DNA of 64,000 nt from Streptomyces sp. PCS3-D2 (lineage in GTDB: Bacteria; Actinomycetota; Actinomycetes; Streptomycetales; Streptomycetaceae): assembly GCF_000612545.2 (NCBI RefSeq), contig NZ_CP097800.1, positions 2,229,001 through 2,293,000 on the forward strand, in the 5' to 3' direction. Below the pieces are notes generated by a model. It was given only the letters and a program-made list of their open reading frames with translations. It was not told the origin of the DNA and did not search any database. Shown here piece by piece: positions 288-18,012 of the stretch. The position numbers and the translations under genes were made by a program. How positions within the stretch are numbered: the stretch's first letter is position 1; each line of letters begins with the position of its first letter.

Positions 288-3200
288 TCAGCGGAGCCGC
301 TGGCTGATGACCTTGGAGACGCCGTCGCCCTGCATCGATACGCCGTAGAGCGCGTCCGCGACCTCCATCGTCCGCTTCTGGTGGGTGATCACGATCAGCT
401 GTGAGCTCTCCTGGAGTTCCTCCATGATCCGGATCAACCGCTGCAGGTTGGTGTCGTCGAGGGCGGCCTCGACCTCGTCCATGACGTAGAACGGGCTGGG
501 GCGCGCCTTGAAGATCGACACCAGCATGGCCACGGCCGTCAGCGAACGCTCGCCGCCGGAGAGCAACGACAGGCGCTTGACCTTCTTGCCCGGCGGGCGG
601 GCCTCCACGTCCACCCCCGTCGTGAGCATGTTGTCCGGGTCGGTCAGCACCAACCTGCCCTCGCCGCCCGGGAACAAGCGCGCGAAGACCCCCTCGAATT
701 CTCGGGCGGTGTCCCGGTATGCCTCGGTGAACACCTGCTCGACTCGCTCGTCGACCTCCTTCACCACGTGAAGGAGATCGGCCCGTGTCTTACGGAGATC
801 CTCCAACTGCTCGCTGAGGAACGCGTGGCGCTCTTCCAGCGCCGCGAACTCCTCCAGGGCCAGCGGATTGACCTTGCCGAGCTGCTGGTACGCCCGTTCG
901 GCCGCCTTGAACCGCTTCTCCTGCTGCGCCCGGACGAAGGGTCCCGGCCGGTTGCGGGGGTGCTCGGGGTCCTGCGGGAGCTCCTCGCCGTCCGCCGGCG
1001 GGGACGGGGGCACCGGCTGGTCCGGACCGTACTCGGCCACGAGCGCACGGGACTCCATGCCGAACTCCTCCAGTGCCTTGGCCTCCAGGGCCTCGATGCG
1101 CAGCCGCTGCTCGGCGCCGAGGACTTCCCCGCGGTGGACGGAGTCGGTGAGTTTGTCGAGCTCGCCCTTCAGGTCGCGGCCGTCGTTGCGCGCGTCGGTG
1201 AGCTCGCGCTCACGCAGCCCCTTGGCCCGCTCGGCCAGGGCCCGCTCCTCGTCGGCCCTGCCGAGCGAGACCTCCACATGGGCGAGGAGCTGGCGGGCCC
1301 CCTCGGCCACCGCGCGGGCCACGTCCGCCTCGTGGCGCCGACGGGCCCGGCGGCGCTCGGCGCGGGCCCGGGCCTCGCGTTCGGCGCGGGCCGCCCGGTC
1401 GAGGGAATCGGCCCGGCCGGCGAGTCCCTTGACCCGCTCCTCGTGGGTACGCAGCTGGAGCCGGGCCTCCATCTCGGTCTGGCGGGCGTTGGCCCCGTCG
1501 GCCGCGAGCCGGTCCCGGCGGGAGCCGTCGGGCTCCTCCTCCACCGGCATCTCCTCGGCCACGGCGAGCCGCTCCGCGCACTCCTCGACCTCGGTCAGCG
1601 CCTGCTCCAGGGCATCCTGGGCCTTGGCCGCGGCGGCGGCGCCCCGCTCGGCCTCGCCGGCCGCGCCCTTCGCCTGCCCGGCGAGCCGCCCGAGCTGCTG
1701 AGCCACCCCGGCACGGGCCTGCTCCGCGGCCCGCCGCCGCTCGGCGAGTTCCTCGACCAGGGCGGCCGCGTCCTGCCGCCGGGACTGCGCGGCGGCCTGC
1801 GCGGCGGCAAGCTCCGTGCACCGCCCGCCCAGTACGGCCAGCTCCGCCGCAGCCTCGTCGACGGCGGCCTGCACCTCGATCAGGCTGGGCGCCCCGGCGG
1901 ATCCGCCCTGCGCGAGGTGCGCACCGAGGAGGTCGCCCCCGACGGTCACGGCCACCGCGTCGGGGCGCCGCGCGACCAGCGCCTCGGCCTCGTCGAGCGT
2001 GTCGACGACGACGTGGTCGCGCAGCACCCATGCCAGCGCCCGCCGCACCTCGGCGTCCCCGGACACCAGCGCGGCGACCGGTACGGGCGCGGTCACCGCG
2101 TCCGAAGCGGGGGCCTGGTGGGGCACCCCCGCCCCGTCCGGCACGGACGCGTGCCCGCCGCCCCCGCCCGCGCGGGCCGCGGGGACGGGCCCCGGGCCGC
2201 ACCCCTCGTCGACGGCCTCCGCCGCAGCCGTCGGCGTCACCCGTGCGCCCGGTCCGGGACGGCCCCCGTCGGCGCCGGCAGCGCCGAGCCCGCCGCCCCG
2301 GCCCGGCCGGAGGGCGGCACCGCCCGCACCCGGGAGGGCAGCACCGTCCGGCACTCCCGGATCCTCGGTCCCGCCCGGTAGGACGGCCGGTGGGGCGATC
2401 AGGAGCGTGGCACGCCCCGCGTCCGCGTCGCGCAGGTGGCGGATGGCCCCGGCCGCCGCCGACGGGGAGGCCACGGCCAGCGCGTCCGCCGCCGAGCCCA
2501 GCGCGGCGGCCACGGCGGCTTCGTACCCCGGGGTCACCGTCAGCCGCTGCGCGGCCGGCCCGAGCACGCCGGCCAGCCGCTCCCGGGCCGCGAGCAGCGC
2601 TCCGGTGCCGTCCTTGCGACGCAGCCCCAGGGCCAGCGCGTCCCGCCGGGCCGACACCGCCGCCCGGGACCGCTCCGCCGCCGCCAGCGCCTCGCGCGCG
2701 GCGCCGAGCGCGGCTTCGGCCTCCTTCAGCTCTGCCCGCGCCGCCTCGTGGTCCGTCTCCGCCGACGGGTCGTCGAGCCCGCCGACCTCCTCCGCCAGTG
2801 CCTCGTACTCGGCCTGCGCGGCTTCGGCCCGGCGCTGCGCCTCGTCCCGGGCCAGGGCGAGCCGGTCGATCTCCGCCTGGGCCGCCCCGGCCCGCGAACG
2901 GGCCGCGCCGAGCCGCCCGGTCAACCGGGCCAGCCCCTCGCGCCGGTCGGCGATGGCCCGCGCGGCGTCCCGCAGTCTGCGCTCCTCCTCGGCCAGCTCC
3001 CGCTCCAGCTCCGCACGGTGCCCGGTGGTGTCCTCCAGGGCCCGCGAGGCCGCCTCCAGAGCGGCCGTCAGCTCCGCCTCCTGCTCGCGGATCCGCTCGG
3101 CCTCCCGCTCCAGGTCCTCGGGGTCGCGGCCCCGGCGCTCCTCCTCCACGGGTGCCGTCGCGCTCTTGATCCGCGCGTCGGCGAGGGACGCGGTGCCCCG

Positions 3201-4100
3201 TACCCGTTCGGCGAGCTGCGACAGCTCGTACCAGGTCTGCTGCGCCCGCTGGAGCCGCGGCGCGAGTTCCCTGACCGCCTGCTCCAGTTCGGCCTCGCGC
3301 CGCAGTGCGTCCGCGAGGCGGGCTTCGGCGGCCTCCTTGCGCTCCTTCAGTGCCGCTTCGTCCGCGATCTCCGCTGCGAGCGCCCGCCGCAGGGCGACCA
3401 GGTCGTCGGCGAGCAGGCGCAGCCGCGCGTCGCGCAGGTCGGCCTGGATCACGGCCGCCCGTCGGGCGACCGCCGCCTGCCGCCCCAGGGGCTTGAGCTG
3501 CCTGCGCAGTTCGTCGCCGAGGTCCTGCACACGGGCGAGGTTGGCCTGCATCGCATCGAGCTTCCGCAGCGCCTTCTCCTTGCGCTTGCGGTGCTTCAGT
3601 ACGCCCGCCGCCTCCTCGATGAAGGCGCGGCGGCCCATGGGGTCGGCGTGCAGGACGGAGTCCAGCTGGCCCTGGCCGACGATGACGTGCATCTCGCGGC
3701 CGATACCGGAGTCGGAGAGCAGCTCCTGGATGTCGAGCAGTCGGCAGGTGTAACCGTTGATCTGGTACTCGCTGCTGCCGCCGCGGAACATGATCCGGGT
3801 GATGGTGACTTCGGCGTAGTCGATGGGCAGCGCGCCGTCGGAGTTGTCGATCGTCAGGGAGACCTCGGCACGCCCGAGCGGCGGGCGGCCGGTGGTCCCG
3901 GCGAAGATGACGTCCTCCATCTTCCCGCCGCGCAGGGACTTGGCCCCCTGTTCGCCCATGACCCAGGACAGCGCGTCGACGACGTTGGACTTGCCCGAGC
4001 CGTTCGGACCCACGACGCAGGTGATGCCGGGTTCGAAGCGCAGGGTGGTGGCCGAGGCGAAGGACTTGAAGCCACGCAGGGTCAGGGACTTGAGGTGCAC
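288..4100 (-). CDS. smc: Chromosome segregation ATPase Smc with an enlarged hinge
   Basis: SMC/condensin core subunit, which dimerises through its hinge and with ScpA/ScpB organises and segregates the chromosome. The 1270-residue product starts MHLKSLTLRGFKSFA. The Walker A GPNGSGKSN is at residues 31-39. Two long Ala/Arg/Glu-rich coiled-coil arms flank a hinge at about 500-735. The C-terminal head has the signature LSGGERSL and the Walker B region FYVMDEVEAALDD. Most Streptomyces Smc proteins are about 1180-1190 residues, so this one is some 80-90 residues longer. The excess lies in the hinge at about residues 573-672 (genomic 2085-2384), where a Gly/Pro/Ala low-complexity segment replaces a short loop before conserved hinge sequence resumes (HVVVDTLDEAEALV, then GGSAGAPSL). 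The reading frame is open throughout. Confidence 0.97.
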   Translation of the reverse strand: MHLKSLTLRGFKSFASATTLRFEPGITCVVGPNGSGKSNVVDALSWVMGEQGAKSLRGGKMEDVIFAGTTGRPPLGRAEVSLTIDNSDGALPIDYAEVTITRIMFRGGSSEYQINGYTCRLLDIQELLSDSGIGREMHVIVGQGQLDSVLHADPMGRRAFIEEAAGVLKHRKRKEKALRKLDAMQANLARVQDLGDELRRQLKPLGRQAAVARRAAVIQADLRDARLRLLADDLVALRRALAAEIADEAALKERKEAAEARLADALRREAELEQAVRELAPRLQRAQQTWYELSQLAERVRGTASLADARIKSATAPVEEERRGRDPEDLEREAERIREQEAELTAALEAASRALEDTTGHRAELERELAEEERRLRDAARAIADRREGLARLTGRLGAARSRAGAAQAEIDRLALARDEAQRRAEAAQAEYEALAEEVGGLDDPSAETDHEAARAELKEAEAALGAAREALAAAERSRAAVSARRDALALGLRRKDGTGALLAARERLAGVLGPAAQRLTVTPGYEAAVAAALGSAADALAVASPSAAAGAIRHLRDADAGRATLLIAPPAVLPGGTEDPGVPDGAALPGAGGAALRPGRGGGLGAAGADGGRPGPGARVTPTAAAEAVDEGCGPGPVPAARAGGGGGHASVPDGAGVPHQAPASDAVTAPVPVAALVSGDAEVRRALAWVLRDHVVVDTLDEAEALVARRPDAVAVTVGGDLLGAHLAQGGSAGAPSLIEVQAAVDEAAAELAVLGGRCTELAAAQAAAQSRRQDAAALVEELAERRRAAEQARAGVAQQLGRLAGQAKGAAGEAERGAAAAAKAQDALEQALTEVEECAERLAVAEEMPVEEEPDGSRRDRLAADGANARQTEMEARLQLRTHEERVKGLAGRADSLDRAARAEREARARAERRRARRRHEADVARAVAEGARQLLAHVEVSLGRADEERALAERAKGLRERELTDARNDGRDLKGELDKLTDSVHRGEVLGAEQRLRIEALEAKALEEFGMESRALVAEYGPDQPVPPSPPADGEELPQDPEHPRNRPGPFVRAQQEKRFKAAERAYQQLGKVNPLALEEFAALEERHAFLSEQLEDLRKTRADLLHVVKEVDERVEQVFTEAYRDTAREFEGVFARLFPGGEGRLVLTDPDNMLTTGVDVEARPPGKKVKRLSLLSGGERSLTAVAMLVSIFKARPSPFYVMDEVEAALDDTNLQRLIRIMEELQESSQLIVITHQKRTMEVADALYGVSMQGDGVSKVISQRLR

Positions 4101-4220
4101 GCCGCCGGACTCTACCTTTCACGTTCGGTTTCACCCGTGAAGGTGCAGGGCACGACTGACGTCGAAGGCATCAGGCCCCCCGCCCGGCCCTGTGGTCCCT
4201 GATGCGGAGCCCAAAGGAAG

Positions 4221-4242
4221 AAGGGACGCCGAAGCGTCCCTT
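4221..4242 (-). terminator. Hairpin after the small conserved gene
   Basis: A perfect 9-bp stem (AAGGGACGC / GCGTCCCTT) closes a 4-nt CGAA loop. It lies 44 bp downstream of the stop of the minus-strand gene at 4286-4504 and upstream of smc. There is no U-run, as is common for Streptomyces hairpin terminators. Confidence 0.6.
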
Positions 4243-4285
4243 GCAGATCATGCCGGGCTGGATTCGAGCGACGAGTGAGCGCGGA

Positions 4286-4504
4286 TCAGGTGAGCGCAGG
4301 CTCCGCCTGGGGTACGTCGATGTCGATGCTGTCCAGCAGCGAGTCTCCGTCGTGCTGAGCGGCGGCCGCGTTCAGCGCGTCATTTTCGGACTGAATCCGT
4401 ACGAGCTCGGACTCGAGGTCCTGGACGCGCTGCTGAAGCCGTCGCATCTCGGCGAGGAGTCGCGGGTCGGAACCGCCGACGTAACCGAGAAGCGCCTTTG
4501 CCAT
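4286..4504 (-). CDS. Small conserved actinobacterial protein (72 aa)
   Basis: The product is 72 residues beginning MAKALLGYVGGSDPRLLAEM, followed by a predicted coiled-coil helix (about residues 15-45, heptads of Leu with Arg/Gln/Glu) and an acidic tail. The start at 4504 is chosen over an upstream in-frame ATG because GGAGGA lies about 9 nt before it (4519-4514) and the recognisable conserved sequence begins here. I recognise it as a conserved small Streptomyces protein found beside smc and acylphosphatase, but I know of no function. The helix suggests an oligomer or adaptor, which is inference only. Confidence 0.85.
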   Translation of the reverse strand: MAKALLGYVGGSDPRLLAEMRRLQQRVQDLESELVRIQSENDALNAAAAQHDGDSLLDSIDIDVPQAEPALT

Positions 4505-4852
4505 GATGGATGGTCCTCCACACTGAGTGACCGACCGAAGCGGTGTGGGTCGTGAGGGAATCGCACCCGCGGATGTCCGGCAGCGACGGTCAGTCACTGC
4601 GCTTACTACTGCCAGCACTGCCAAACAGCTCAGGTGCGCGGGGCTTCCAGCGTCTCACCAAAAAGTTTGACGGTCAACACGATCACGCCCCGTATCGGCG
4701 GGCAGCCCGGCCCTCGCAAGGGGCGTGGAGATCATCCTTGTCTCCGAGCCTTCCATGGATCGCCCCCGCCGGCAACGCGTCGACGGCGAATGCCCAGTTC
4801 CGACCGGGTCCGGGCGATCAGAGATGTGATGAGTTCATGATCAGTCGATCCC

Positions 4853-5134
4853 TCACCGCATCCCGAACCCGTCGTAGCCACCGCGCGGTGTGCCCCAGAT
4901 CTCTGTCACCCCGTCCACCCGGCCGGGCGTGTCGGGGGAGCGCAGCCAGTCCAGCAGCCGGTGGCAATTCTCACGTTGACCTTCGGCCACCACCTGCACC
5001 CGCCCGTCGTCGAGGTTGAGGGCGAAGCCGACCATCCCGCCGATCTCCATGGCGTTCTCCCTGGTGAACCAGCGGAATCCCACTCCCTGCACCCGGCCGC
5101 GCACCCAGGCGGTCAGGCGGACGTCTTCATTCAT
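4853..5134 (-). CDS. acyP: Acylphosphatase
   Basis: A 93-residue acylphosphatase, which hydrolyses carboxyl-phosphate bonds such as acetyl phosphate and carbamoyl phosphate. The family signature [11 protein letters not shown] (residues 13-23) contains the catalytic arginine of the phosphate-binding loop. The second conserved region is [13 protein letters not shown] (about residues 40-52) with its essential asparagine. Length and domain are typical. It is a single-gene unit between the small smc-adjacent gene and the secreted CAP protein, and about 350 bp without genes separate it from the former. The start ATG at 5134 gives the usual short N-terminus. Confidence 0.95.
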
Positions 5135-5215
5135 GCGTGAACGCTAACCGGGCGCGAACTTTCCGGTCACATCGCCCCCAGCGCCCCATGGCGTACAGTC
5201 GCGCACCAATGAACT

Positions 5216-5229
5216 CACCCATTTGGGTG
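5216..5229. promoter_or_regulatory. Palindrome upstream of the CAP-domain gene
   Basis: CACCCA-TT-TGGGTG is a perfect 6-bp inverted repeat, 43 bp upstream of the CAP-domain start and in the divergent promoter region shared with acyP. It is a candidate operator; no regulator is implied by the neighbours. Confidence 0.35.
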
Positions 5230-5272
5230 GGTAAGGGACGATCTTGATCCGGCCAGGAAGGGCACGACACCG

Positions 5273-6268
5273 ATGGGACGTCACGGACTCCACGCCGCGC
5301 CGCGCCGCGGCGGCAAGCACGGCACCGCCCTGCGCACCGGCCTGCTGGGGGTCTCGGTGGCCGTCGCCCTCGGCACCGCGGCCGTCACCACCGGCATGGT
5401 GCCGGTCGGCGCCTCGTTCCCCTATGTGGGTGTCAGCGGTACGGAAGCCACCGCCGCGAAGACCGGCGCGGCCCAGGCCGCGCCGGACCCCGACGCCCCT
5501 TCCGTGATCGACCGGCAGGGCGGCCTCGCGAGCCTGTCCGGCCGCGGCGCGGCGACCAGCGGCGCACCCACCGCCCCCGCGACCCCGGCGGCCCCGTCCT
5601 CCGCGCCGGCCTCGCCCTCCCCGTCGGACTCCCCCTCGGTTTCGGCACCGCCGACCCGCTCCGAGCCTGCTCCGCCGAAGGCCTCCTCCGGCGCCGTCCC
5701 GCCGTCCGCCTCGCCGAGCACCACAGGCCGGACCCCGGCCGCACCGACGCCCGCCCCGGAGCGGACCCAGGCGCCGGCACCCGCCGCGCCGACCCCGACC
5801 CCCACCCCGACGGCGACCCCGACCGCGACCGCGCAGGCACCCACGGCGCCGGCGCCCGCAGCCACCGCGACCCGGCCGAGCCTCGACACCCACTCCGCCG
5901 AGGAGGCGGCCGTGGTGACCCTGGTGAACGAGGAGCGCGCCCGGGCGGGCTGCGGCCCGGTCCGCGCCAACCCACCACTGGCGGCCCTGGCCGGCGCCTT
6001 TAGCCAGGACATGGCCAACCGCGGCTTCTTCGGCCACGAGGACCCCGACGGCAACACCCCCTGGGACCGCGCCGCCGCGGCAGGCCTCTCGGGCCTCGGC
6101 GGCGAGAACATAGCCCGCGGCCAGGGCGACGCGGAGTCCGTGATGAACGCCTGGATGAACAGCCCGGAGCACAGGGCGAACATCCTCAACTGCGAGTTCC
6201 GCAGGCTGGGTGTCGGCGCCCACTTCGCCGCCGGCGGGCCTTGGTGGACCCAGGATTTCGGCCTCTGA
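5273..6268 (+). CDS. Secreted CAP/SCP-domain protein with a Pro/Ala/Ser/Thr linker
   Basis: A 331-residue extracytoplasmic protein. The N-terminus is basic (RRGGKHG), followed by a hydrophobic segment (about residues 22-45) that acts as signal peptide or anchor. A long Pro/Ala/Ser/Thr linker (about 75-205) follows, then a C-terminal CAP domain (about 210-331) with LVNEERARAGC, a GFFGHEDPDG histidine motif, the CAP signature SPEHRANILN and the terminal WWTQDFG. CAP proteins are secreted and bind lipids, glycans or proteins; the function here is not deducible. AGGAAGG precedes the ATG by about 11 nt. The linker resembles cell-wall-spanning stalks. Confidence 0.9.
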   Translation: MGRHGLHAAPRRGGKHGTALRTGLLGVSVAVALGTAAVTTGMVPVGASFPYVGVSGTEATAAKTGAAQAAPDPDAPSVIDRQGGLASLSGRGAATSGAPTAPATPAAPSSAPASPSPSDSPSVSAPPTRSEPAPPKASSGAVPPSASPSTTGRTPAAPTPAPERTQAPAPAAPTPTPTPTATPTATAQAPTAPAPAATATRPSLDTHSAEEAAVVTLVNEERARAGCGPVRANPPLAALAGAFSQDMANRGFFGHEDPDGNTPWDRAAAAGLSGLGGENIARGQGDAESVMNAWMNSPEHRANILNCEFRRLGVGAHFAAGGPWWTQDFGL

Positions 6269-10245: not shown

Positions 10246-11337
10246 TCAGCGGCCCTGTTCGTACTGGCGCAGCTGATCCAGGTTGATCATGCTCGTGTCG
10301 AAGAAGCTGGTCTCATCGAGCGAGGGCTGCTGGGCCTGCTGCTCGGCCTGCTGATGCTGCTGGTGCTGCTGCGGCTGGTGGTAGGCGGCGTACGGGTCGG
10401 GCTGCTGCTGGTAGGCGGCGTACGGGTCCGGCTGCTGCTGGTAGCCCCCGTACGGGTCCGGGTAGGGCGCGGCATAGGCCGCCGCGGTGGAGCCGGTGCC
10501 GGCACCGGGGTAGGCGTCCTGCTGCTGGGCGGCGGGCTGCTGGTAGCCGTACGCGTCGTAGGGGGACTCCGGCCGGGCCGGTACGGGCGGCTGCACGTGA
10601 GCGGGCTCCGGCTCCGCGAGGCCCGCCAGGAAGTCGGAGTCGCTCGCCGAGCGGGACGGCTGGCCCGCGGCCGCGTCCTGGGCCGCCATGTGCACGCCCA
10701 GGTCGTCCGTCGGGACCCGGCCGAGCAGCTTCTGGCGGCCGCGGCCCACGGCCTCCAGGGTCTTGGAGAGCACCGCTTCGAAGGTCGCCAGCTTGGTGTC
10801 CACGTACGCGTCCGCCTGCTGCCGCTGCGTCTCGGGGTCGTGGCTGCGCTCGGGGGCGTCCGCGTCCGGGTAGCCGTCCTCGTCCAGACCCGGGCCGCGG
10901 CCCAGGAGCTTCTCCCGGCCCCGGTCCACCGAGCCGATCGTCTTGGTCAGCACGACCTCGAAGTTCGCGAGCTTGCTGTCGACGTAGTCGTCGGCTTCAG
11001 CCCGGATCTCCTCGGCCTCCCGGCGGGCCTCCTCCACGATGCGGTCGGCCTCGGCCTGCGAGCGCCGCGCGATCTCGGTGTCGGCGATCAGCGATCCGCG
11101 CTGGTCGTGGGCCGCGTCGATGATCCGCTCCGCCTCCCGGCGGGCCTCCTCCACCATCTGCTCCCGGCCGCCGAGCAGCTCCTGGGCCTGCGCGAGCGAG
11201 CCGGGGAGCGCCTGGCGCACCTCTTCGAGCTGGGCGAGCAGCTCGGCGCGGTTGATCACGCAGGAGGCCGACATCGGCATGGACCGGGCGCCGCCGACGG
11301 CTGCGACGATCTCGTCGAGCTTCTTCTGCACGTCCAT
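10246..11337 (-). CDS. SepIVA/DivIVA-like coiled-coil cell-division protein
   Basis: A 363-residue protein. The N-terminus is MDVQKKLDEIVAAVGGARSM, then a long coiled coil (about residues 30-125) rich in EEARREAERII-type heptads. Two repeated segments follow, ADDYVDSKLANFEVVLTKT and ADAYVDTKLATFEAVLSKT, each ahead of a G-R-x-K-LLGR motif, then a Pro/Gln/Tyr tail (about 235-340). In mycobacteria the DivIVA-domain septation factor SepIVA is encoded at the same place, between coaD and the DUF177 gene, so I infer a septation or polar-growth scaffold. The start ATG 11337 excludes a non-homologous upstream extension. The ribosome-binding site is weak. Confidence 0.88.
   Translation of the reverse strand: MDVQKKLDEIVAAVGGARSMPMSASCVINRAELLAQLEEVRQALPGSLAQAQELLGGREQMVEEARREAERIIDAAHDQRGSLIADTEIARRSQAEADRIVEEARREAEEIRAEADDYVDSKLANFEVVLTKTIGSVDRGREKLLGRGPGLDEDGYPDADAPERSHDPETQRQQADAYVDTKLATFEAVLSKTLEAVGRGRQKLLGRVPTDDLGVHMAAQDAAAGQPSRSASDSDFLAGLAEPEPAHVQPPVPARPESPYDAYGYQQPAAQQQDAYPGAGTGSTAAAYAAPYPDPYGGYQQQPDPYAAYQQQPDPYAAYHQPQQHQQHQQAEQQAQQPSLDETSFFDTSMINLDQLRQYEQGR
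10381..10460. repeat. 30-bp tandem repeat in the SepIVA-like tail
   Basis: Nearly 2.7 copies of a 30-bp unit (two full copies at 10381-10410 and 10411-10440 differ at one base; the third is partial) encode a repeated PDPYAAYQQQ decapeptide. The region is a likely site of copy-number variation among strains. Confidence 0.8.
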
Positions 11338-11420
11338 GGGGGCTCGCACTCTCTCGGCCTCAGGCGGTTCCCGAGACGGACGGGTCGACTGTAAGGCCAG
11401 CGGGCGGGCCCCCGACACCG

Positions 11421-11437
11421 GCTGACGCCTCGTCAGC
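11421..11437 (-). terminator. Hairpin just after coaD
   Basis: A perfect 7-bp stem (GCTGACG / CGTCAGC) with a 3-nt loop lies 4 bp beyond the coaD stop codon, between coaD and the SepIVA-like gene. Confidence 0.5.
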
Positions 11438-11440
11438 AGA

Positions 11441-11920
11441 TCAGCGCTCGCGCAGCCGCTCCAGGAGCGCCGCGTGCACGTGTGCCGGCAGCAGGTGGGC
11501 GACGTCTCCGCCCCAGGCCGCCACTTCCTTGACCAGCGAGGAGGACAGGAAGCTGTAGGAGGGAATGGTCGGGACGAACAATGTCTCGACGCCCGACAGC
11601 CCCAGGTTCATCTGGGCCATCTGGAGCTCGTAGTCGAAGTCGCTGACCGCGCGCAGGCCCTTGACGATGGCCGGGATGTCCCGCTGCTTGCAGAAGTCGA
11701 CGAGCAGTCCCCGGAAGGCCTCCACCTGGACGTTTCCGTAGTCCACCGTCGCCTCGCGGATCAGCTCGATCCGCTCCTCGACCGTGAACAGGCCCTTCTT
11801 CGACTCGTTGATCCCCACGGCGACGTGCACGACGTCGTACAGCCTGGAGGCGCGTCCGATGATGTCGAGGTGTCCGTTGTGGATGGGGTCGAAGGACCCC
11901 GGACAGACGGCGCGGCGCAA
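11441..11920 (-). CDS. coaD: Phosphopantetheine adenylyltransferase
   Basis: The penultimate step of coenzyme A synthesis: it adenylates 4'-phosphopantetheine to dephospho-CoA. The product has the nucleotidyltransferase fold motif CPGSFDPIHNGHLDII with the (T/H)xGH signature, then GINESKKGLFTVEERIEL and the C-terminal YSFLSSSLVKE region. The start chosen is the TTG at 11920, giving 159 residues (LRRAVCPGSFDP), because GAGGGAG lies 5 nt upstream and the family normally begins there. An ATG at 11938 overlapping the rsmD stop (ATGA) would add six residues. It is translationally coupled to rsmD. Confidence 0.94.
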   Translation of the reverse strand: MRRAVCPGSFDPIHNGHLDIIGRASRLYDVVHVAVGINESKKGLFTVEERIELIREATVDYGNVQVEAFRGLLVDFCKQRDIPAIVKGLRAVSDFDYELQMAQMNLGLSGVETLFVPTIPSYSFLSSSLVKEVAAWGGDVAHLLPAHVHAALLERLRER

Positions 11921-11934
11921 CTGAACTCCCTCGT

Positions 11935-12513
11935 TCATGAGTCTTCGCGGGTGAAGGCGGCGCGGCCGTACCACAGGGTGCCCTCGCCGTACGTCCGCGA
12001 CCGGAGCGGCTCGAAGCCCTCGGGCCACGGAAAGGCGCCGCTCCTCGTGCTGCGCTCCACGGTGACGAGCGCGCCGTCCGTGATCCAGCCATTGGACCGG
12101 AGTGTGAGCAGGATCTCCCGCAGGTCCGCGCTGTCCACCGCGTACGGCGGGTCCAGGAAGACGACGTCGTACGGGTCCCCGCCCGCGCGAGCGGCCACGA
12201 TCTGCTCGGCCCTGCCGGCCCGGAACTCGGCCCCGGGCAGGCCCAGCGTCCTGATGTTGTCGCGGATCGCCTTGGCGGCCTTCGGGTCCGACTCGACCAG
12301 GAAGGCGTGGTCCGCGCCTCGGGAGAGGGCTTCCAGGCCGACGGCGCCGGAGCCGCCGTACAGGTCGAGCACCCGTGCCCCTTCGACTCCGTGCAGCGAC
12401 TCCCAGGTGGAGAAGAGGCCTTCGCGCATCCGGTCCGAGGTCGGCCGGGTGCCGGTGCCGGGGGGCACGGCCAGCCGTCGCCCGCCGGCGCTGCCGGCGA
12501 TCACGCGGGTCAT
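11935..12513 (-). CDS. rsmD: 16S rRNA (guanine-966-N2)-methyltransferase
   Basis: A 192-residue SAM-dependent methyltransferase of the RsmD family that methylates G966 of 16S rRNA. It begins TRVIAGSAGGRRLAVPPG. The SAM-binding motif I is VLDLYGGSGAVGLEALSRG (from about residue 48) and the catalytic motif DPPY is at 121-124. The start at 12513 (MTRVIAG) is chosen over an upstream ATG because family homology starts here. It sits between recG and coaD, the standard actinobacterial order, with the coaD start region overlapping its stop. Confidence 0.95.
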   Translation of the reverse strand: MTRVIAGSAGGRRLAVPPGTGTRPTSDRMREGLFSTWESLHGVEGARVLDLYGGSGAVGLEALSRGADHAFLVESDPKAAKAIRDNIRTLGLPGAEFRAGRAEQIVAARAGGDPYDVVFLDPPYAVDSADLREILLTLRSNGWITDGALVTVERSTRSGAFPWPEGFEPLRSRTYGEGTLWYGRAAFTREDS

Positions 12514-12586
12514 CTGGGGTCCTTCGGTACGGCGGCAGGGGCAGCCGGGCGGTCCGCCGCGGCACTCCAACGATAGGTCGTACCGC

Positions 12587-15500
12587 TCAGCCCTTCTCCA
12601 GGTACCGCTCGCGCTCGGTGTCGAGGAGGGCGTCCAGCGCGGTCCGCAGGCCCGGCAGCCGCTCCAGAGCGGGGTCCGCGGCCACCACCCGGGTGGCTTC
12701 GTCCCGGGCCTGGGCGATGACCTCCTCGTCGTCGATGACGGCGAGCATGCGCAGCGAGGAGCGAACCCCCGACTGGGCCTGGCCCAGGACGTCGCCCTCG
12801 CGGCGCTGTTCGAGGTCGATCCGGGAGAGCTCGAAGCCGTCGAGGGTGGCGGCGACAGCGGCCAGCCTGGCCCGGGCGGGACTCGCCTCGTGCATCTCGC
12901 TGACCAGCAGGCACAGGCCTGGGGCGGAGCCGCGTCCGACGCGACCGCGCAGCTGGTGGAGCTGGGAGACGCCGAACCGGTCCGCGTCCATGATCACCAT
13001 GACGGTGGCGTTGGGGACGTTCACGCCGACCTCGATGACGGTGGTGGCGACCAGCACCTTCACCTCGCCGGCCGTGAACCGGCGCATGACGTCGTCCTTG
13101 TCGGCGGGGTCCATCCGGCCGTGCAGCACCTCGACGCTCAGGCCGGCCAGCGGGCCCTGGCCGAGCTGCTCGGCGATCTCCAGGACGGCGAGCGGCGGCC
13201 TCCGGTCGGCGTCGTCCGCGGCCTGCTTCTTCCTTGGGTCGTCCTCCCCGTCCCCGATGCGCGGGCAGACCACGTACGCCTGGTGGCCCTTCTCCACCTC
13301 CTCGCGGACCCGCTCCCAGGCCCGGGCGAGGAAGTGCGGCTTGTCCTTGGCCGGCACCACATGGGTGGCGATCGGCGAGCGCCCGGCGGGCAACTGGTCG
13401 AGGACGGAGGTCTCCAGGTCGCCGAAGACGGTCATGGCGACGGTGCGCGGGATCGGGGTGGCGGTCATCACCAGCAGGTGCGGTGGCTGCTTGCCCTTGG
13501 AGCGCAGCGCGTCGCGCTGCTCTACGCCGAAGCGGTGCTGCTCGTCCACGACGACCAGGCCGAGGTCGTCGAACCGCACTTTGTCCTCGATCAGCGCGTG
13601 CGTGCCGATGACGATCCCGGCCTCCTTGGTGACCAGGTCGAGCAGGGCCTGCCGGCGTGCCGGCATCCCCATCGACCCGGTGAGCAGCACGACCTTGGTG
13701 CCCTGTTCGCAGCCGCCGAGCATGCCGCCTTCGGCCAGTCCGCCCATCATCTCGACGATGGAGCGGTGGTGCTGCTGGGCGAGCACCTCGGTGGGCGCGA
13801 GCATCGCCGCCTGCCCGCCGGAGTCCACGACGGCCAGCATCGCCCGCAGGGCCACCATGGTGTTGTGCGTCACGGTGAAGTGGTCCGTCACGTACGCGTG
13901 GCTCGGATGCTCGACCCGGATGCACTGCACCGGCTTGGGGCCCACGTGCTCCACGGCCCGGATGGCGCGCCGCCGAGTGCCGGACTCCGGCCGCGGCCGC
14001 TTGCGGGCCGCCTCGCGTCGCAGCCGGAACGGCTCGAACTCGTCGGGCAGCGCCACGGAGACGCCGGACACCGCCTCACCGGGCAGCACCCGGGCATCTC
14101 CGCCGAGGGAGCGCACGAGCCAGGCCACGTCCTGTGCCAACCGGAGGGAGGCGGAGCGGAACGAGATGCCCGCTCCGTCCGCTTGTACCGTCCCGTCCGC
14201 GTCCATGAGGCCTTGCAGGACCGCAAGGCGGTCCTTGACCGGTGCGTTCTTGTAGACGTCCGGAACGAAGATGTCGTGCGGGGCCACGCCCCGCAGCCCC
14301 AGGCCCCGTACCGCCCGGCCGACCGGACCGGGCCCGGCGGCCGCCTCGTGGTGCGGGGCGAGCGCGGCCTCGGCCGCCGCCAGGATCTCCCGGTCCGCGG
14401 TGGACAGGTCCAGGTCGTGCCGGAAGGAGCCGGCTCCGAGGAGCACGCCCGTCAGGTAGGGATCGAGGGGCCGGCGGTCACCGGTCCCGAGATCCACGGG
14501 AACGGCCACCGGCAGGTACCACCTGGCAGAACCGTCGGCCTCGTGGAGGTCCGCCCTGATCTCCCTCGTGGTCAGCACCGCGGGTTCCTGGCCGCGGCTC
14601 CATCCGCGGCTCGTGCCGACGATCCACAGGTGTTCGTCGTCGCACTCGACAGTGCTCCCGTCCGAGAGCACCACCCGCCACACCTCGCGCTCCCCCTGCG
14701 GGAAGACTGCCCCCACGCGGGCGGTCTCACCGGATGGCACCACCACCTCGTCCCCCACCCCGATGTCTCCCATCGGCCGGAAACCCGTGGGGGTGAGCAC
14801 CAGTGAATCGAGGGGCTGGGCCTTGCCCGAGCCGACCTCGCCCTGGAGGAGACGGTGCATGGGGTGGCTGGTGGCGAGGTCGTCGAAGATCTCCTTCGAG
14901 ACCTTCTGCTGGCCCTCGGTGAGGGTGAAGGGCAGGGTGGCGTCGAAGGCGTCGAGCAGGCCGCCGGGGGCGGGGCGGCGCGGTACGGCCGGGAGCTGGG
15001 CGTCGGCGTGGCGGCGGCGGGCCAGGGCGACCTGGAGGACGAAGGCCTCGTCCCACTTCAGTCGCTGCCGGGCGTCCTCGATGTCGGCCTTGGCGGCCGG
15101 CCGGTGGATCTTCAGCAGGGCTTCGGGGAGCGGGAGCAGCCCGCGGCCCTCGCGCAGGGCGGGCGGCAGCGGGTCGACGACCTCCCTGGCGCTGGGCAGC
15201 ACGGCGTCCACGCATTTGGCGATCTTCCAGGATTCCAGCTTCGCGCAGGCCGGGTAGATCGGGATCAGCTGGTTGGCGAAGGCGGTGGCGGCGTCCCGGT
15301 CGGAGGCGTCAGCGCCGAGCGGTTCGTACGCCGGGTGCGCGAGTTGGAGCTTGCGGTTGAACAGGGAGACCTTGCCGGCGAACATCGCGCGGCTGCCCGG
15401 GAGCAGTTCCTTGTGCGGCTTGTGGACGCCGGCGCCGAAGAAGACCAGCTGGAGCCGGCCGCTGCCGTCGGTGATGGTCACCTCCAGCCGCTTGCCCCGG

Positions 15501-15739
15501 CCCCCGTTGAAGGTCAGGACGCGGGCGTCGGCGACCTGCGCGACAACGGTCACGTGCTCGTCGATCTGGCCGGCGAGCTCGGCCAGCGGGGTCAGCTCGC
15601 CGCGCTCGGCGTACCGCCTCGGGTAGTGGTGGAGCAGGTCCAGGGCCGTGTGCAGGCCGAGCTGCTCGGCCAGCACCTTGGCGGTGGCGGGACCGAGTGT
15701 CTTCTTGAGGTCTTCGTCGAGCGCGGGCACGTGTTCCAT
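12587..15739 (-). CDS. recG: ATP-dependent DNA helicase RecG, interrupted by an intein
   Basis: RecG remodels stalled forks and branch-migrates recombination intermediates. The 1050-residue precursor comprises a wedge/OB domain (HVTVVAQVADARV, about residues 62-130), then a helicase core split by a 320-residue intein at residues 307-626. The extein alone would be about 730 residues, normal for the family. Walker A is GEVGSGK followed by T only after splicing. Walker B is VVDEQHRFGVEQRDAL, and the motif VIEVGVNVPNATVMV and the Q-x-x-G-R-x-G-R motif (QLRGRVGRG) follow. The start ATG at 15739 has a weak ribosome-binding site but gives the expected (M)EHVPALDEDL beginning. It lies 26 bp after the DAK/FakA-like gene. 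Helicase activity should depend on splicing, since the P-loop is split between Lys and Thr. Confidence 0.95.
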   Translation of the reverse strand: MEHVPALDEDLKKTLGPATAKVLAEQLGLHTALDLLHHYPRRYAERGELTPLAELAGQIDEHVTVVAQVADARVLTFNGGRGKRLEVTITDGSGRLQLVFFGAGVHKPHKELLPGSRAMFAGKVSLFNRKLQLAHPAYEPLGADASDRDAATAFANQLIPIYPACAKLESWKIAKCVDAVLPSAREVVDPLPPALREGRGLLPLPEALLKIHRPAAKADIEDARQRLKWDEAFVLQVALARRRHADAQLPAVPRRPAPGGLLDAFDATLPFTLTEGQQKVSKEIFDDLATSHPMHRLLQGEVGSGKAQPLDSLVLTPTGFRPMGDIGVGDEVVVPSGETARVGAVFPQGEREVWRVVLSDGSTVECDDEHLWIVGTSRGWSRGQEPAVLTTREIRADLHEADGSARWYLPVAVPVDLGTGDRRPLDPYLTGVLLGAGSFRHDLDLSTADREILAAAEAALAPHHEAAAGPGPVGRAVRGLGLRGVAPHDIFVPDVYKNAPVKDRLAVLQGLMDADGTVQADGAGISFRSASLRLAQDVAWLVRSLGGDARVLPGEAVSGVSVALPDEFEPFRLRREAARKRPRPESGTRRRAIRAVEHVGPKPVQCIRVEHPSHAYVTDHFTVTHNTMVALRAMLAVVDSGGQAAMLAPTEVLAQQHHRSIVEMMGGLAEGGMLGGCEQGTKVVLLTGSMGMPARRQALLDLVTKEAGIVIGTHALIEDKVRFDDLGLVVVDEQHRFGVEQRDALRSKGKQPPHLLVMTATPIPRTVAMTVFGDLETSVLDQLPAGRSPIATHVVPAKDKPHFLARAWERVREEVEKGHQAYVVCPRIGDGEDDPRKKQAADDADRRPPLAVLEIAEQLGQGPLAGLSVEVLHGRMDPADKDDVMRRFTAGEVKVLVATTVIEVGVNVPNATVMVIMDADRFGVSQLHQLRGRVGRGSAPGLCLLVSEMHEASPARARLAAVAATLDGFELSRIDLEQRREGDVLGQAQSGVRSSLRMLAVIDDEEVIAQARDEATRVVAADPALERLPGLRTALDALLDTERERYLEKG
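13862..14821 (-). other. Class 3-type intein inside the RecG P-loop
   Basis: A 320-residue in-frame insert splits GSGK from T. It begins AQPLDSLVLTPTGF, so there is no Cys, Ser or Thr at position 1, and ends FTVTHN before Thr+1. The three class 3 marker residues are visible. A Trp is in block B (VECDDEHLWIV), a Cys in block F (PVQCIRVEHPSH), and a Thr just before the terminal His-Asn. Between the splicing blocks is a LAGLIDADG-type homing-endonuclease remnant. The second motif LQGLMDADGTV looks intact. The first, GVLLGAGSF, has Ala where the catalytic Asp of LLGDG would be. I infer an intein able to splice whose endonuclease is probably inactive. Confidence 0.93.
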
Positions 15740-15765
15740 TGCACACCATGGCGCTGACAAGCCCG

Positions 15766-17466
15766 CTATTCCACCCCGATGAGGAGCGGCGCCGAGTACC
15801 GACCGCCCCGGTAGGTGACGGTGTCCACCGCCAGGTGCCCGGACTGCACGTGGGCCTGGAGGTGTTCGGCGACGGCGTCCGGCACCTCCGGACCGAGGAC
15901 CAGGGTGACGAGTTCGCCGCCGGAGCCGAGCATCCGGTCCAGCACCGCCACGGCGGTCTCGGCCAGGCCCGCTCCGATCACGGCGACGTCGCCGTCGATC
16001 AGACCGAGCACGTCTCCGGCCTGGCAGATACCGGCCGAGGTGAAGGACTGGCGTTCGGCGACGGCCAGTTCCCCGTAGCGGGTGGCGCCGGCGGCCGCGG
16101 TCATGGCGACCACGTCCTCGTCGAAGCTGCCCTGCGGGTCGTGCACGGCGAGCGCGGCCAGGCCCTGGACCGCGGAGCGGGTGGGGATCACCGCGACGCG
16201 CACGCCCTCGGCACGGGCCTGTTCGGCGGCGGTGGCCGCGGCCGCGCGCAGTTCCGCGCGGCCCGGCAGGAGCACCACCTCGCGGGCGTGGGCGCGGCGT
16301 ACGGCGTCGAGGAGCTCGGCAGCGGCCGGGACCTCGCCGGGGCGCACGAGCACGGTGGTCGCGCCGGCCCCGGCGCACAGGTCCACCAGTCCCTCGCCGG
16401 GGACCAGGGCAACCACGGCGCGCTGGGCGCGCTCGCCGCGGCCGCGGCGGCGCTCGTCGCCGAAGTGCGTGATCCGGATCCGGTAGGGCCGTCCGGCGAC
16501 GACCCCGGCCTCCACGGCCGCACCGGGGTCGTCGACGTGGACGTGGACGTTCCACAGCCCGTCGCCGCCGACGACGACCAGAGAGTCGCCGAGGCCGTCG
16601 AGCTGTGCGCGCAGTTCCGCGACCGCCGCGTCCGAGGCCTCCAGCAGGTAGATCACCTCGTACGCGGGCCCGTCCTCGTGCTGTTCGCAGGGGTCGGTCG
16701 GCCGCGGGCCGGACACCGCGGGCCGGCCGGCCGCCGGTTCGGCGGCCGGCTCCTGGCCGGACAGGGCCTGCCAGAGGGCGCCGAGCACGGCGACCAGTCC
16801 GCAGCCTCCGGCGTCGACCACCCCGGCCCGGCCCAGCGCGGCGAGCTGCCCGGGGGTCTCGGCGAGTGCGGCGCGGGCGCCGTCATAGGCGGCGCGGGCC
16901 ACGTCGGCCGCGGTACCGGCGGCCTCCGAGGCCGCTTCGCCGGCCCGGGCGGCGGCGCCCGCGACGGTGAGCATGGTGCCCTCCACCGGATGGGCGACGG
17001 CCGCGTACGCCTCTTCCGCGGCCCGGCTGAGTGCGCGGGCGAGCAGCCCGCCGGGGCCGGTCCGCCCGCCTCCGGACTCGGCCTCGGGCTCGGCCTCGGG
17101 CTCGGCCTCGGGCTCGGCGCCGAGCACGTCGGCCACTCCGCGCAGCAGCTGCGCGAGGATCGTCCCGGAGTTCCCCCGGGCGCCGACGAGCGCGCCGTGC
17201 GCCCAGGCCCGTACGGCCTCGGACAGGGTGGTCGGCGCCACGGTCCGGCCGGCCGCGTCCCCGAAGGTGTCCGCCAGCGCGCGGTCGGCCGACTCGGCGG
17301 TGAGGTAGAGGTTGGTGCCGGTGTCCGCGTCGGCGACCGGGTAGACGTTGATCGCGTCGATGTCCTCGCGGGCCCGCCCCAGCGCGGCCAGGGCGAGCGA
17401 GCTCCAGGTGCGCACTGCCTCGGCGTCGAGCTCGTCTGCGGGCTGCGGCTGCGGCTCGTGCGGCAC
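15766..17466 (-). CDS. DAK2/DegV-type protein, fatty-acid kinase FakA-like
   Basis: A 566-residue protein with an N-terminal DhaL/DAK2 domain (residues about 15-250) whose Mg-ATP loop is NVYPVADADTGTNLYLT (about 40-56). GARGNSGTILAQLLRG and GVVDAGGCGLV follow. A C-terminal FakA-type region contains the nucleotide-like segments VVALVPGEGLVDL and VLLPGRAE. FakA proteins phosphorylate fatty acids bound to FakB partners; no FakB is visible nearby. The start is GTG 17466 with AAGGAGG upstream. An EPEAEPEAEPEAE stretch is encoded by a 12-bp tandem repeat. It is directly upstream of recG (26 bp), a conserved pair. Confidence 0.9.
   Translation of the reverse strand: MPHEPQPQPADELDAEAVRTWSSLALAALGRAREDIDAINVYPVADADTGTNLYLTAESADRALADTFGDAAGRTVAPTTLSEAVRAWAHGALVGARGNSGTILAQLLRGVADVLGAEPEAEPEAEPEAESGGGRTGPGGLLARALSRAAEEAYAAVAHPVEGTMLTVAGAAARAGEAASEAAGTAADVARAAYDGARAALAETPGQLAALGRAGVVDAGGCGLVAVLGALWQALSGQEPAAEPAAGRPAVSGPRPTDPCEQHEDGPAYEVIYLLEASDAAVAELRAQLDGLGDSLVVVGGDGLWNVHVHVDDPGAAVEAGVVAGRPYRIRITHFGDERRRGRGERAQRAVVALVPGEGLVDLCAGAGATTVLVRPGEVPAAAELLDAVRRAHAREVVLLPGRAELRAAAATAAEQARAEGVRVAVIPTRSAVQGLAALAVHDPQGSFDEDVVAMTAAAGATRYGELAVAERQSFTSAGICQAGDVLGLIDGDVAVIGAGLAETAVAVLDRMLGSGGELVTLVLGPEVPDAVAEHLQAHVQSGHLAVDTVTYRGGRYSAPLLIGVE
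17077..17112. repeat. 12-bp tandem repeat within the DAK gene
   Basis: Three exact head-to-tail copies of CTCGGCCTCGGG encode the Glu-Pro-Glu-Ala repeats. A change in copy number would keep the frame. Confidence 0.85.
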
Positions 17467-17642
17467 CGGGCGTTCCTCCTTGTGCGGGCCAGGGTTCACC
17501 GCAGGGTAACGAAGGACCGCGCTCCCGGGGCCGGGACCGCGGGGCGGGGTTGCCGGCCGCCATGGTAGTTTTCTTGGACGGGCGCAGTCGTTGTATGCTG
17601 CTCCGGTTGCCCGATGAGAGTCGGGTCTTTCCCCGGCAAACC

Positions 17643-17694
17643 ACTTCAGACCTCTGATCCGGTGCGCCGGATTCACTGTAATTGCATCTGAAGT
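17643..17694 (+). promoter_or_regulatory. Nested hairpins in the rpmB 5' leader
   Basis: An outer inverted repeat, ACTTCAGA (17643-17650) with TCTGAAGT (17687-17694), encloses an inner perfect hairpin, ATCCGG-TGCG-CCGGAT (17657-17672). The structure ends 4 nt before the GGAG ribosome-binding site of rpmB. It could be an autoregulatory r-protein leader; a TATGCT -10-like element lies at 17594-17599. Confidence 0.45.
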
Positions 17695-17708
17695 CTTTGG
17701 AGTGACCT

Positions 17709-17894
17709 GTGGCTGCCAACTGCGACGTTTGCGCCAAGGGGCCGAGCTTCGGCAACAACATCTCCCACTCGCACCGCCGCACCTCGCGTCGCTGGAACCC
17801 GAACATCCAGCGCGTTCGTGCCGTGGTCAATGGGACGCCGAAGCGCCTCAACGCCTGCACCTCGTGCATCAAGGCCGGCAAGGTCTCGCGCTGA
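17709..17894 (+). CDS. rpmB: 50S ribosomal protein L28
   Basis: A 61-residue L28 beginning (M)[16 protein letters not shown], with CDVC and CTSC cysteine pairs for zinc (C+ form) and the signature [15 protein letters not shown]. The start is GTG at 17709 with GGAGTG 7-10 nt upstream. It stands alone on the plus strand between the divergent DAK-recG block and a strong terminator. The leader contains a nested hairpin. Confidence 0.97.
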
Positions 17895-17929
17895 CGCCCG
17901 TCGTAGCGCAGCCCCTTCCGGTTGCCAAG

Positions 17930-17962
17930 AAGGCCGGTTCACCTCTGGTGAACCGGCCTTTT
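17930..17962 (+). terminator. Strong hairpin terminator after rpmB
   Basis: A 14-bp stem, AAGGCCGGTTCACC / GGTGAACCGGCCTT, with a 3-nt TCT loop is followed by TT. It lies 35 bp after the rpmB stop and between convergent rpmB and thiD, so it probably serves both. Confidence 0.85.
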
Positions 17963-18012
17963 GCCTTGTCCGGGGGGTTCCGGAGGCCGCAACCCCGGGG
18001 GCCGGGGCAGGA

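Follow-up and report, generated by a model that had tools for sequence, protein, structure and literature searches.

Class 3 inteins, the P-loop as a site for them and RecG as an intein host are all known already. The Lys/Thr position of the P-loop is described as a classic intein site, and more than 48% of actinobacterial genomes are reported to contain inteins (PMC5050341). RecG is listed among bacterial intein hosts in a table of a 2018 review (PMC5874633). In a library of open-access papers, five name both inteins and RecG, but none has a phrase naming a RecG intein. In M. smegmatis, peroxide inhibits the class 3 intein in the P-loop of DnaB, whose only two cysteines, Cys48 and Cys118, form a disulfide, and a DxxH motif of class 3 inteins is described in the same paper (PMC6195587). 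Block positions of class 3 inteins are numbered here as in PMC3196547.

The window is a 64,000-nucleotide stretch of Streptomyces sp. PCS3-D2 DNA, and positions below refer to it. Its recG gene is interrupted by an insert that we interpret, with confidence and on the basis of sequence comparison and predicted structure, as a class 3 intein in the RecG P-loop. The intein is most likely still splicing. Its homing endonuclease appears to be decaying and is probably immobile, as expected in the decay phase of the homing cycle.

Position and class 3 signature of the recG insert

The recG precursor gene is found on the minus strand at 12587..15739, with its ATG at 15739 and its stop at 12587, and encodes 1050 residues, namely 730 of RecG and 320 of intein. 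The N-extein (14822..15739, minus strand, 306 residues) ends in LLQGEVGSGK, which is Walker A without its Thr. The intein (13862..14821, minus strand, 320 residues) runs from AQPLD to FTVTHN. The C-extein (12587..13861, minus strand, 424 residues) starts with TMVALRAM, and its Thr+1 completes Walker A. Translation of the minus strand of 13862-14821 gives 320 stop-free codons, in frame between GEVGSGK and TMVALRAM of RecG. The insertion between GSGK and T of Walker A that had been proposed by the first-pass annotation is thus correct, and its coordinates are exact.

The host is identified as RecG by NCBIfam NF008167 (1098 bits, against a cut-off of 995), and it has the Pfam domain set of this helicase (wedge, OB, DEAD, Helicase_C and RecG_dom3_C). 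The genome contains one full recG match, and the next is a separate 1201-residue frame only 39% identical, so recG is single copy. A relative of the insert is in frame at the identical RecG junction in 80 of 80 loci (the best 80 of 156 confirmed relatives in the genome-collection scan), and all 158 fetched intein-free alleles are uninterrupted across this junction. Because of these two observations, a chance origin of the in-frame insert is excluded on sequence comparison. An antisense open frame of 1110 residues (11474-14806, plus strand) lies opposite recG and its neighbours, and most likely arises merely from codon bias in DNA of 70-75% G+C. An Rfam scan of window positions 11000-18000 at gathering thresholds gave no match.

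The splicing part comprises an N-terminal half with blocks A and B (residues 1-112, 14486..14821, minus strand), recognized by alignment with class 3 DnaB inteins, by the structural model and by a VIA alignment, and a C-terminal half with blocks F and G (residues 284-320, 13862..13972, minus strand); the boundaries of both are our choice. Block B has the form DxxH instead of TxxH, with Asp61 at 14639..14641 and His64 at 14630..14632 (all residues are on the minus strand). Trp66 (14624..14626), two residues past the block B His, is block B position 12, and Cys300 (13922..13924), the putative block F nucleophile, is block F position 4. In an alignment with class 3 DnaB inteins, of the kind that had been suggested as a check, these two residues fall opposite the block B Trp and the block F Cys of 6bs8 and 6rix. 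Block G consists of Thr318 (position 5) and the His-Asn end, Thr318-His319-Asn320 occupying 13862..13870, and is followed by the nucleophile Thr+1. Trp66, Cys300 and Thr318 form the WCT set of class 3.

These assignments were extended to 100 distinct RecG inteins, 247 to 339 residues long. Ala1, Asp61, His64, Trp66, Cys300 and Thr318 are invariant (100/100 each), so that position 1 is never Cys, Ser or Thr. The His-Asn end and Thr+1 were demanded by the pattern with which the 100 inteins were read; the best 80 loci all conformed to it (80/80). The residue at +2 is Met in 99 of the distinct inteins and Leu in 1, the pattern having admitted only these two. Ala1, Thr+1, the Trp, the Cys and the Thr near the C-terminus had all been named in the first-pass annotation, and its central proposal of a class 3-type intein with a damaged homing endonuclease held at every sequence and predicted-structure point tested.

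Structural comparisons point the same way. In a PDB sequence search the five best hits are all inteins, with E values of 3e-6 or better, and the mycobacterial DnaB inteins 6rix, 6bs8 and 6riy head the list. The model of the window's intein has a pLDDT of 89.5. Its splicing part adopts a predicted HINT fold that, over 123 residues, superimposes at 1.5 A on the solved class 3 Msm DnaB intein (35% identity). The predicted fold including the endonuclease lobe matches PI-SceI. The general intein model PF14890 (Intein_splicing) has no match in the window's genome. In a control, it matched in 6 of 14 genomes, 4 above the cut-off. Its silence was not read as absence of an intein and is taken as a limit of the model; annotation relying on it would miss the window copy.

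The order of splicing steps can be proposed by analogy with studied class 3 inteins, in which the block F Cys begins the reaction and two branched intermediates are formed. Cys300, activated with His64 and Thr318, would attack the Lys-Ala1 junction, and the N-extein would be transferred to Thr+1 as a branched ester. Asn320 would then cyclise, and the RecG halves would be joined with GEVGSGKT restored.

Occupied and empty recG alleles in the genus

Two joined RecG flanks were used as a query over 198 genomes of the genus. No recG was found in three of them (G001, G050 and G099), which leaves 195 scored genomes, of which 32 are occupied at the RecG site and 163 are empty. All 32 genomes with separated halves were opened, and each holds a RecG intein in frame. 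The empty set comprises the 158 fetched alleles that run through the junction, one allele (G119) judged from match pieces, in which the flank match is contiguous with an apparent frameshift, and four (G037, G072, G135 and G156) judged from scores alone. Intein-free recG alleles, which the first-pass annotation had recommended looking for, are thus the majority. Its suggestion that RecG is a rare intein host does not survive, given the 32 occupied genomes of 195 and the place of RecG in the host table of PMC5874633.

No intein is present in L160, the recG gene nearest to that of the window (identical in 95% of DNA columns). A short search gave a recG tree of 190 rows, on which occupancy needs 19 changes, at least 15 of them forced by starred branches, whereas shuffled labels need 29.9. 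Occupancy is therefore clustered but patchy. For the 32 occupied genomes, the extein tree is rejected by the intein data (AU p 4e-64), also by the splicing part of the intein alone (AU p 1e-8), and the intein tree is rejected by the extein data (AU p 5e-169). Several groups agree between the two trees by eye. Patchy occupancy together with conflicting trees fits repeated horizontal movement at one site, although part of the conflict could come from exchange of whole recG genes, beside homing.

Occupied alleles differ in raw counts from empty ones around the P-loop. All 32 have Met at +2, versus 100 of 158 empty alleles (raw Fisher p 3e-6). A TCN codon encodes the P-loop Ser in 30 of the 32, versus 104 of the 158 (raw p 0.001). 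In tree-independent pairs these trends are 4.0 to 0 for Met+2 (median p 0.125) and 4.6 to 1.2 for TCN (median p 0.375). Because they are non-significant once the tree is considered, we do not claim that P-loop sequence marks permissive alleles, whether by target preference or by co-conversion. Seven other extein serine positions show no association with occupancy, and six of the seven barely vary.

The first-pass annotation had raised splicing as a possible control point. It is conceivable that the intein is retained as a switch of RecG; splicing would then depend on conditions and might, for instance, be blocked by oxidation of Cys300, perhaps against Cys60. The window's intein resembles that of M. 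smegmatis DnaB in having exactly two cysteines, since Cys60 (14642..14644, minus strand) is the only one besides Cys300. Of 100 distinct RecG inteins, 98 retain Cys60, as do 30 of the 32 from the genus sample. Eroded inteins (247-273 residues, without either endonuclease Asp) occur in six genomes that make up one side of a single branch of the 190-row recG tree, so that no empty allele of the sample falls within this clade. However, DnaB Cys48 aligns with Val47 rather than with Cys60, and the best 80 loci were picked partly by a pattern that includes Cys60. Moreover, this residue is dispensable, because two of the 100 RecG inteins have Ser or Ala in its place and a plasmid RecG intein has Ala. 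The splicing part in the eroded clade has a median dN/dS of 0.31 (15 pairs), versus 0.092 among 91 pairs with intact endonucleases, which is the opposite of tightening selection. Slow loss accounts for retention without a function, and we regard a switch as unlikely. The more specific idea that in some Streptomyces lineages the intein outlived its endonuclease as a useful redox gate, with an unspliced RecG pool released upon Cys300 reduction, is slightly less likely again. If true, it would place a post-translational redox gate, comparable to that of mycobacterial DnaB, on the fork-rescue helicase RecG.

Apparent decay of the endonuclease domain and probable maintenance of splicing

The endonuclease domain occupies about residues 117-275 (13997..14473, minus strand) and appears to be a decaying LAGLIDADG-type domain, as judged from a Pfam match, dN/dS ratios and the PI-SceI fold match. 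LAGLIDADG_3 is the only Pfam domain in the insert (PF14528 match at residues 199-243). The first dodecapeptide motif reads LLGAG and the second MDADG, as had been noted in the first-pass annotation. Ala130 (14432..14434, minus strand) stands in place of the block C catalytic Asp of intact relatives, and Asp209 (14195..14197, minus strand), the block E Asp, is kept; we take these to be the catalytic positions of the two LAGLIDADG motifs. Of the two Asp residues that an active LAGLIDADG endonuclease requires, the window copy thus retains only the second. It is also shortened: between residues 165 and 166 (14326..14327, minus strand) it lacks 19 residues that its three close relatives L002, L003 and L016 all have.

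Other RecG inteins have lost these Asp residues as well. Among the 100 distinct inteins, Asp is present at the position of Ala130 in 74 and at that of Asp209 in 81. Both are present in 67, only the first is lost in 14, only the second in 7, and both in 12; 80 of the 100 have the full length of 338-339 residues. In the genus sample, which carries no pattern bias, both Asp are present in 17 of 32 inteins, and 14 of 32 have both and are of full length.

Selection was compared by simple pairwise Nei-Gojobori counts, which are noisy and come from pairs that share branches. For the endonuclease, splicing part and extein, respectively, dN/dS is 0.513, 0.155 and 0.175 between the window and L002, 0.411, 0.140 and 0.158 between the window and L003, and 0.336, 0.179 and 0.120 between the window and L016. 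The intact controls give 0.135, 0.085 and 0.134 (L002-L003), 0.190, 0.162 and 0.118 (L002-L016), and 0.247, 0.092 and 0.118 (L003-L016). Over the 91 pairs with both Asp and full length, the median endonuclease value is 0.169; one close pair of this kind (L006-L018) reaches 0.635, from 22 changes. The raised endonuclease ratio of the window copy points to relaxation of selection.

An alternative is that the endonuclease domain is still active, or has another DNA-binding role, despite the Ala. The block E Asp and the overall PI-SceI-like fold do remain, and ratios of 0.34-0.51 stay below 1, but one of the two catalytic Asp is lost along with the 19-residue stretch, and the ratios are higher than in intact relatives. 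Broken states also recur, with 9-10 changes on the intein tree of 32 rows (5-6 of them forced by starred branches), as drift predicts. We consider this alternative very unlikely.

The preferred reading is a copy late in a homing cycle. Horizontal transfer, through homing or otherwise, would have brought the element into recG P-loops, and those relatives whose LAGLIDADG domain is intact are probably still mobile. In the lineage of the window, the first catalytic Asp of the endonuclease and the stretch of 19 residues have gone and the domain appears to be drifting, so that the copy is probably immobile. It probably persists because it splices harmlessly.

That it still splices is suggested by the host gene. 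For pairs with dS of 0.05-0.6, median extein dN/dS is 0.222 among occupied genes (415 pairs) versus 0.245 among empty ones (9870 pairs), and it is 0.18 between the window and its empty sister. The exteins are thus under equal constraint whether or not the site is filled, and recG is single copy in the window's genome, so the occupied gene presumably yields a functional RecG. Given the split Walker A, the constrained exteins and the intact signature residues, splicing is by far the simplest reading of these sequences. Replacements unique to the window copy number 17 for the endonuclease and 10 for the splicing part, compared with 2 and 1 for L002, and this faster change in the splicing part leans slightly against a perfectly maintained splicer. 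An insert that no longer splices, leaving RecG dead in this strain, might explain these 10 replacements and the long branch of the window's intein (0.25 versus 0.018 for L002), but it is very unlikely and the least probable alternative. The replacements (residues 33, 35, 38, 46, 75, 81, 90, 99, 100 and 314) spare all named catalytic residues, and a long-dead gene would drift from the ratios seen, which are 0.155 for the splicing part compared with L002 and 0.18 for the extein compared with the empty sister. These values would still allow a very recent death of RecG.

With splicing as the preferred reading, the window copy is a clean example of the known intein life cycle, in which the splicing half looks intact and the copying half is decaying. 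One genus offers, at one site, a dense series of empty, intact full-length, single-dead-motif (such as the window copy) and minimal (about 250 residues) states. With such a series, allele swaps in tractable bacteria can test the rise-and-decay model of homing elements, and likewise whether any intein is kept for the benefit of its host. No account of a decay series within a single genus, or of the plasmid and out-of-class copies described below, was met in the literature searched; they follow the known homing cycle.

Relatives beyond the genus and comparison with known systems

The best 80 of 156 confirmed relatives in the genome-collection scan are 79 from Streptomyces and one from Actinacidiphila. 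RecG inteins of other genera of the family are also among the matches listed (L314 and L319). In a genome of the same phylum but outside the class (L334), the RecG site is filled and both endonuclease Asp are kept. The intein of this genome is 58% identical to that of the window, compared with 40% and 52% for the compared parts of the N- and C-exteins, and it is thus closer in sequence than are the RecG parts of its host. A RecG-like helicase (L220) is encoded on the 300-kb Rhodococcus rhodochrous plasmid NZ_CP120357.1, which is typed as mobilizable. The best NCBIfam matches of this protein are RecG models, under their cut-offs. Its gene region is 1603-5280, the intein looks intact, and the P-loop site is shared with the window. 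Two further Rhodococcus plasmids have match figures equal to those of L220.

A 40-row tree joins the chromosomal RecG inteins first to the plasmid intein (99/91) and next to that of L134 (98/91); several branches are long, so that deeper placing is unsure. L134, from the Actinomycete genome G477, is a large helicase-like protein with an HPVGAGK/T loop (the slash marks the junction), and carries a near non-RecG relative of the window's intein (50%). Phage records contain 681 weaker relatives, all below 60% identity, and helicases and terminases prevail among the 20 matches listed.

Class 3-type inteins are also present within a small protein in other genera of the family (L315, L317 and L321; 349 residues in L315 and 296 in L321). 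The junctions in L315 read VEGN/A...THN/TNDSGSTEGDG, and by our reading of the sequence the host resembles a cell-wall hydrolase carrying a peptidoglycan-binding tail. In each of two single open frames of about 1450 residues (G090:C1:848503-851814 and G128:C2:10114209-10117520), the intein query matches at several separate places, a hint that one protein carries two inteins.

Among known systems, PI-SceI and archaeal VMA inteins are only 15-18% identical to the window's intein. They belong to class 1 and keep Cys1; several titles among the fold matches of this type name C1A variants.

Class 3-type PhoH inteins of Actinomycetes share the AQP-type start and the HLW and THN blocks, mostly at about 40-44% identity. 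Unlike the window's intein, they are inserted before the Thr (Ser in L150) of TLNDAFIILDEAQN, which by our reading is near Walker B and not in Walker A. They occur in many Actinomycetes, including Streptomyces (L027, L138-L141, L143-L153, L316, L318, L320 and L322-L324), and are mostly 330-360 residues long where measured. No paper joining intein, Streptomyces and PhoH was found in the open-access library searched.

The plasmid-borne RecG-like intein L220 agrees with that of the window in host family, in its site (GDVGSGK/T) and in the WCT set, at 52% identity, but it has 353 residues and both endonuclease Asp. The RecG intein of S. avidinii (L031, the same intein as L002) is inserted at the same site and is 81% identical; it differs in having both catalytic Asp and the 19-residue stretch.

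The class 3 DnaB inteins (Msm DnaBi1, 6bs8; MchDnaB-1, 6rix and 6riy) have a different host, DnaB instead of RecG, and their splicing parts are 32-35% identical to that of the window. Msm DnaBi1 has the same P-loop insertion just before +1, Ala1, the DxxH motif, the WCT set, the His-Asn end and the HINT fold. The +1 residue is Ser in the DnaB inteins and Thr in the window, the second Cys is placed differently, and, in contrast to them, the window's intein still has a recognisable, though damaged, endonuclease domain.
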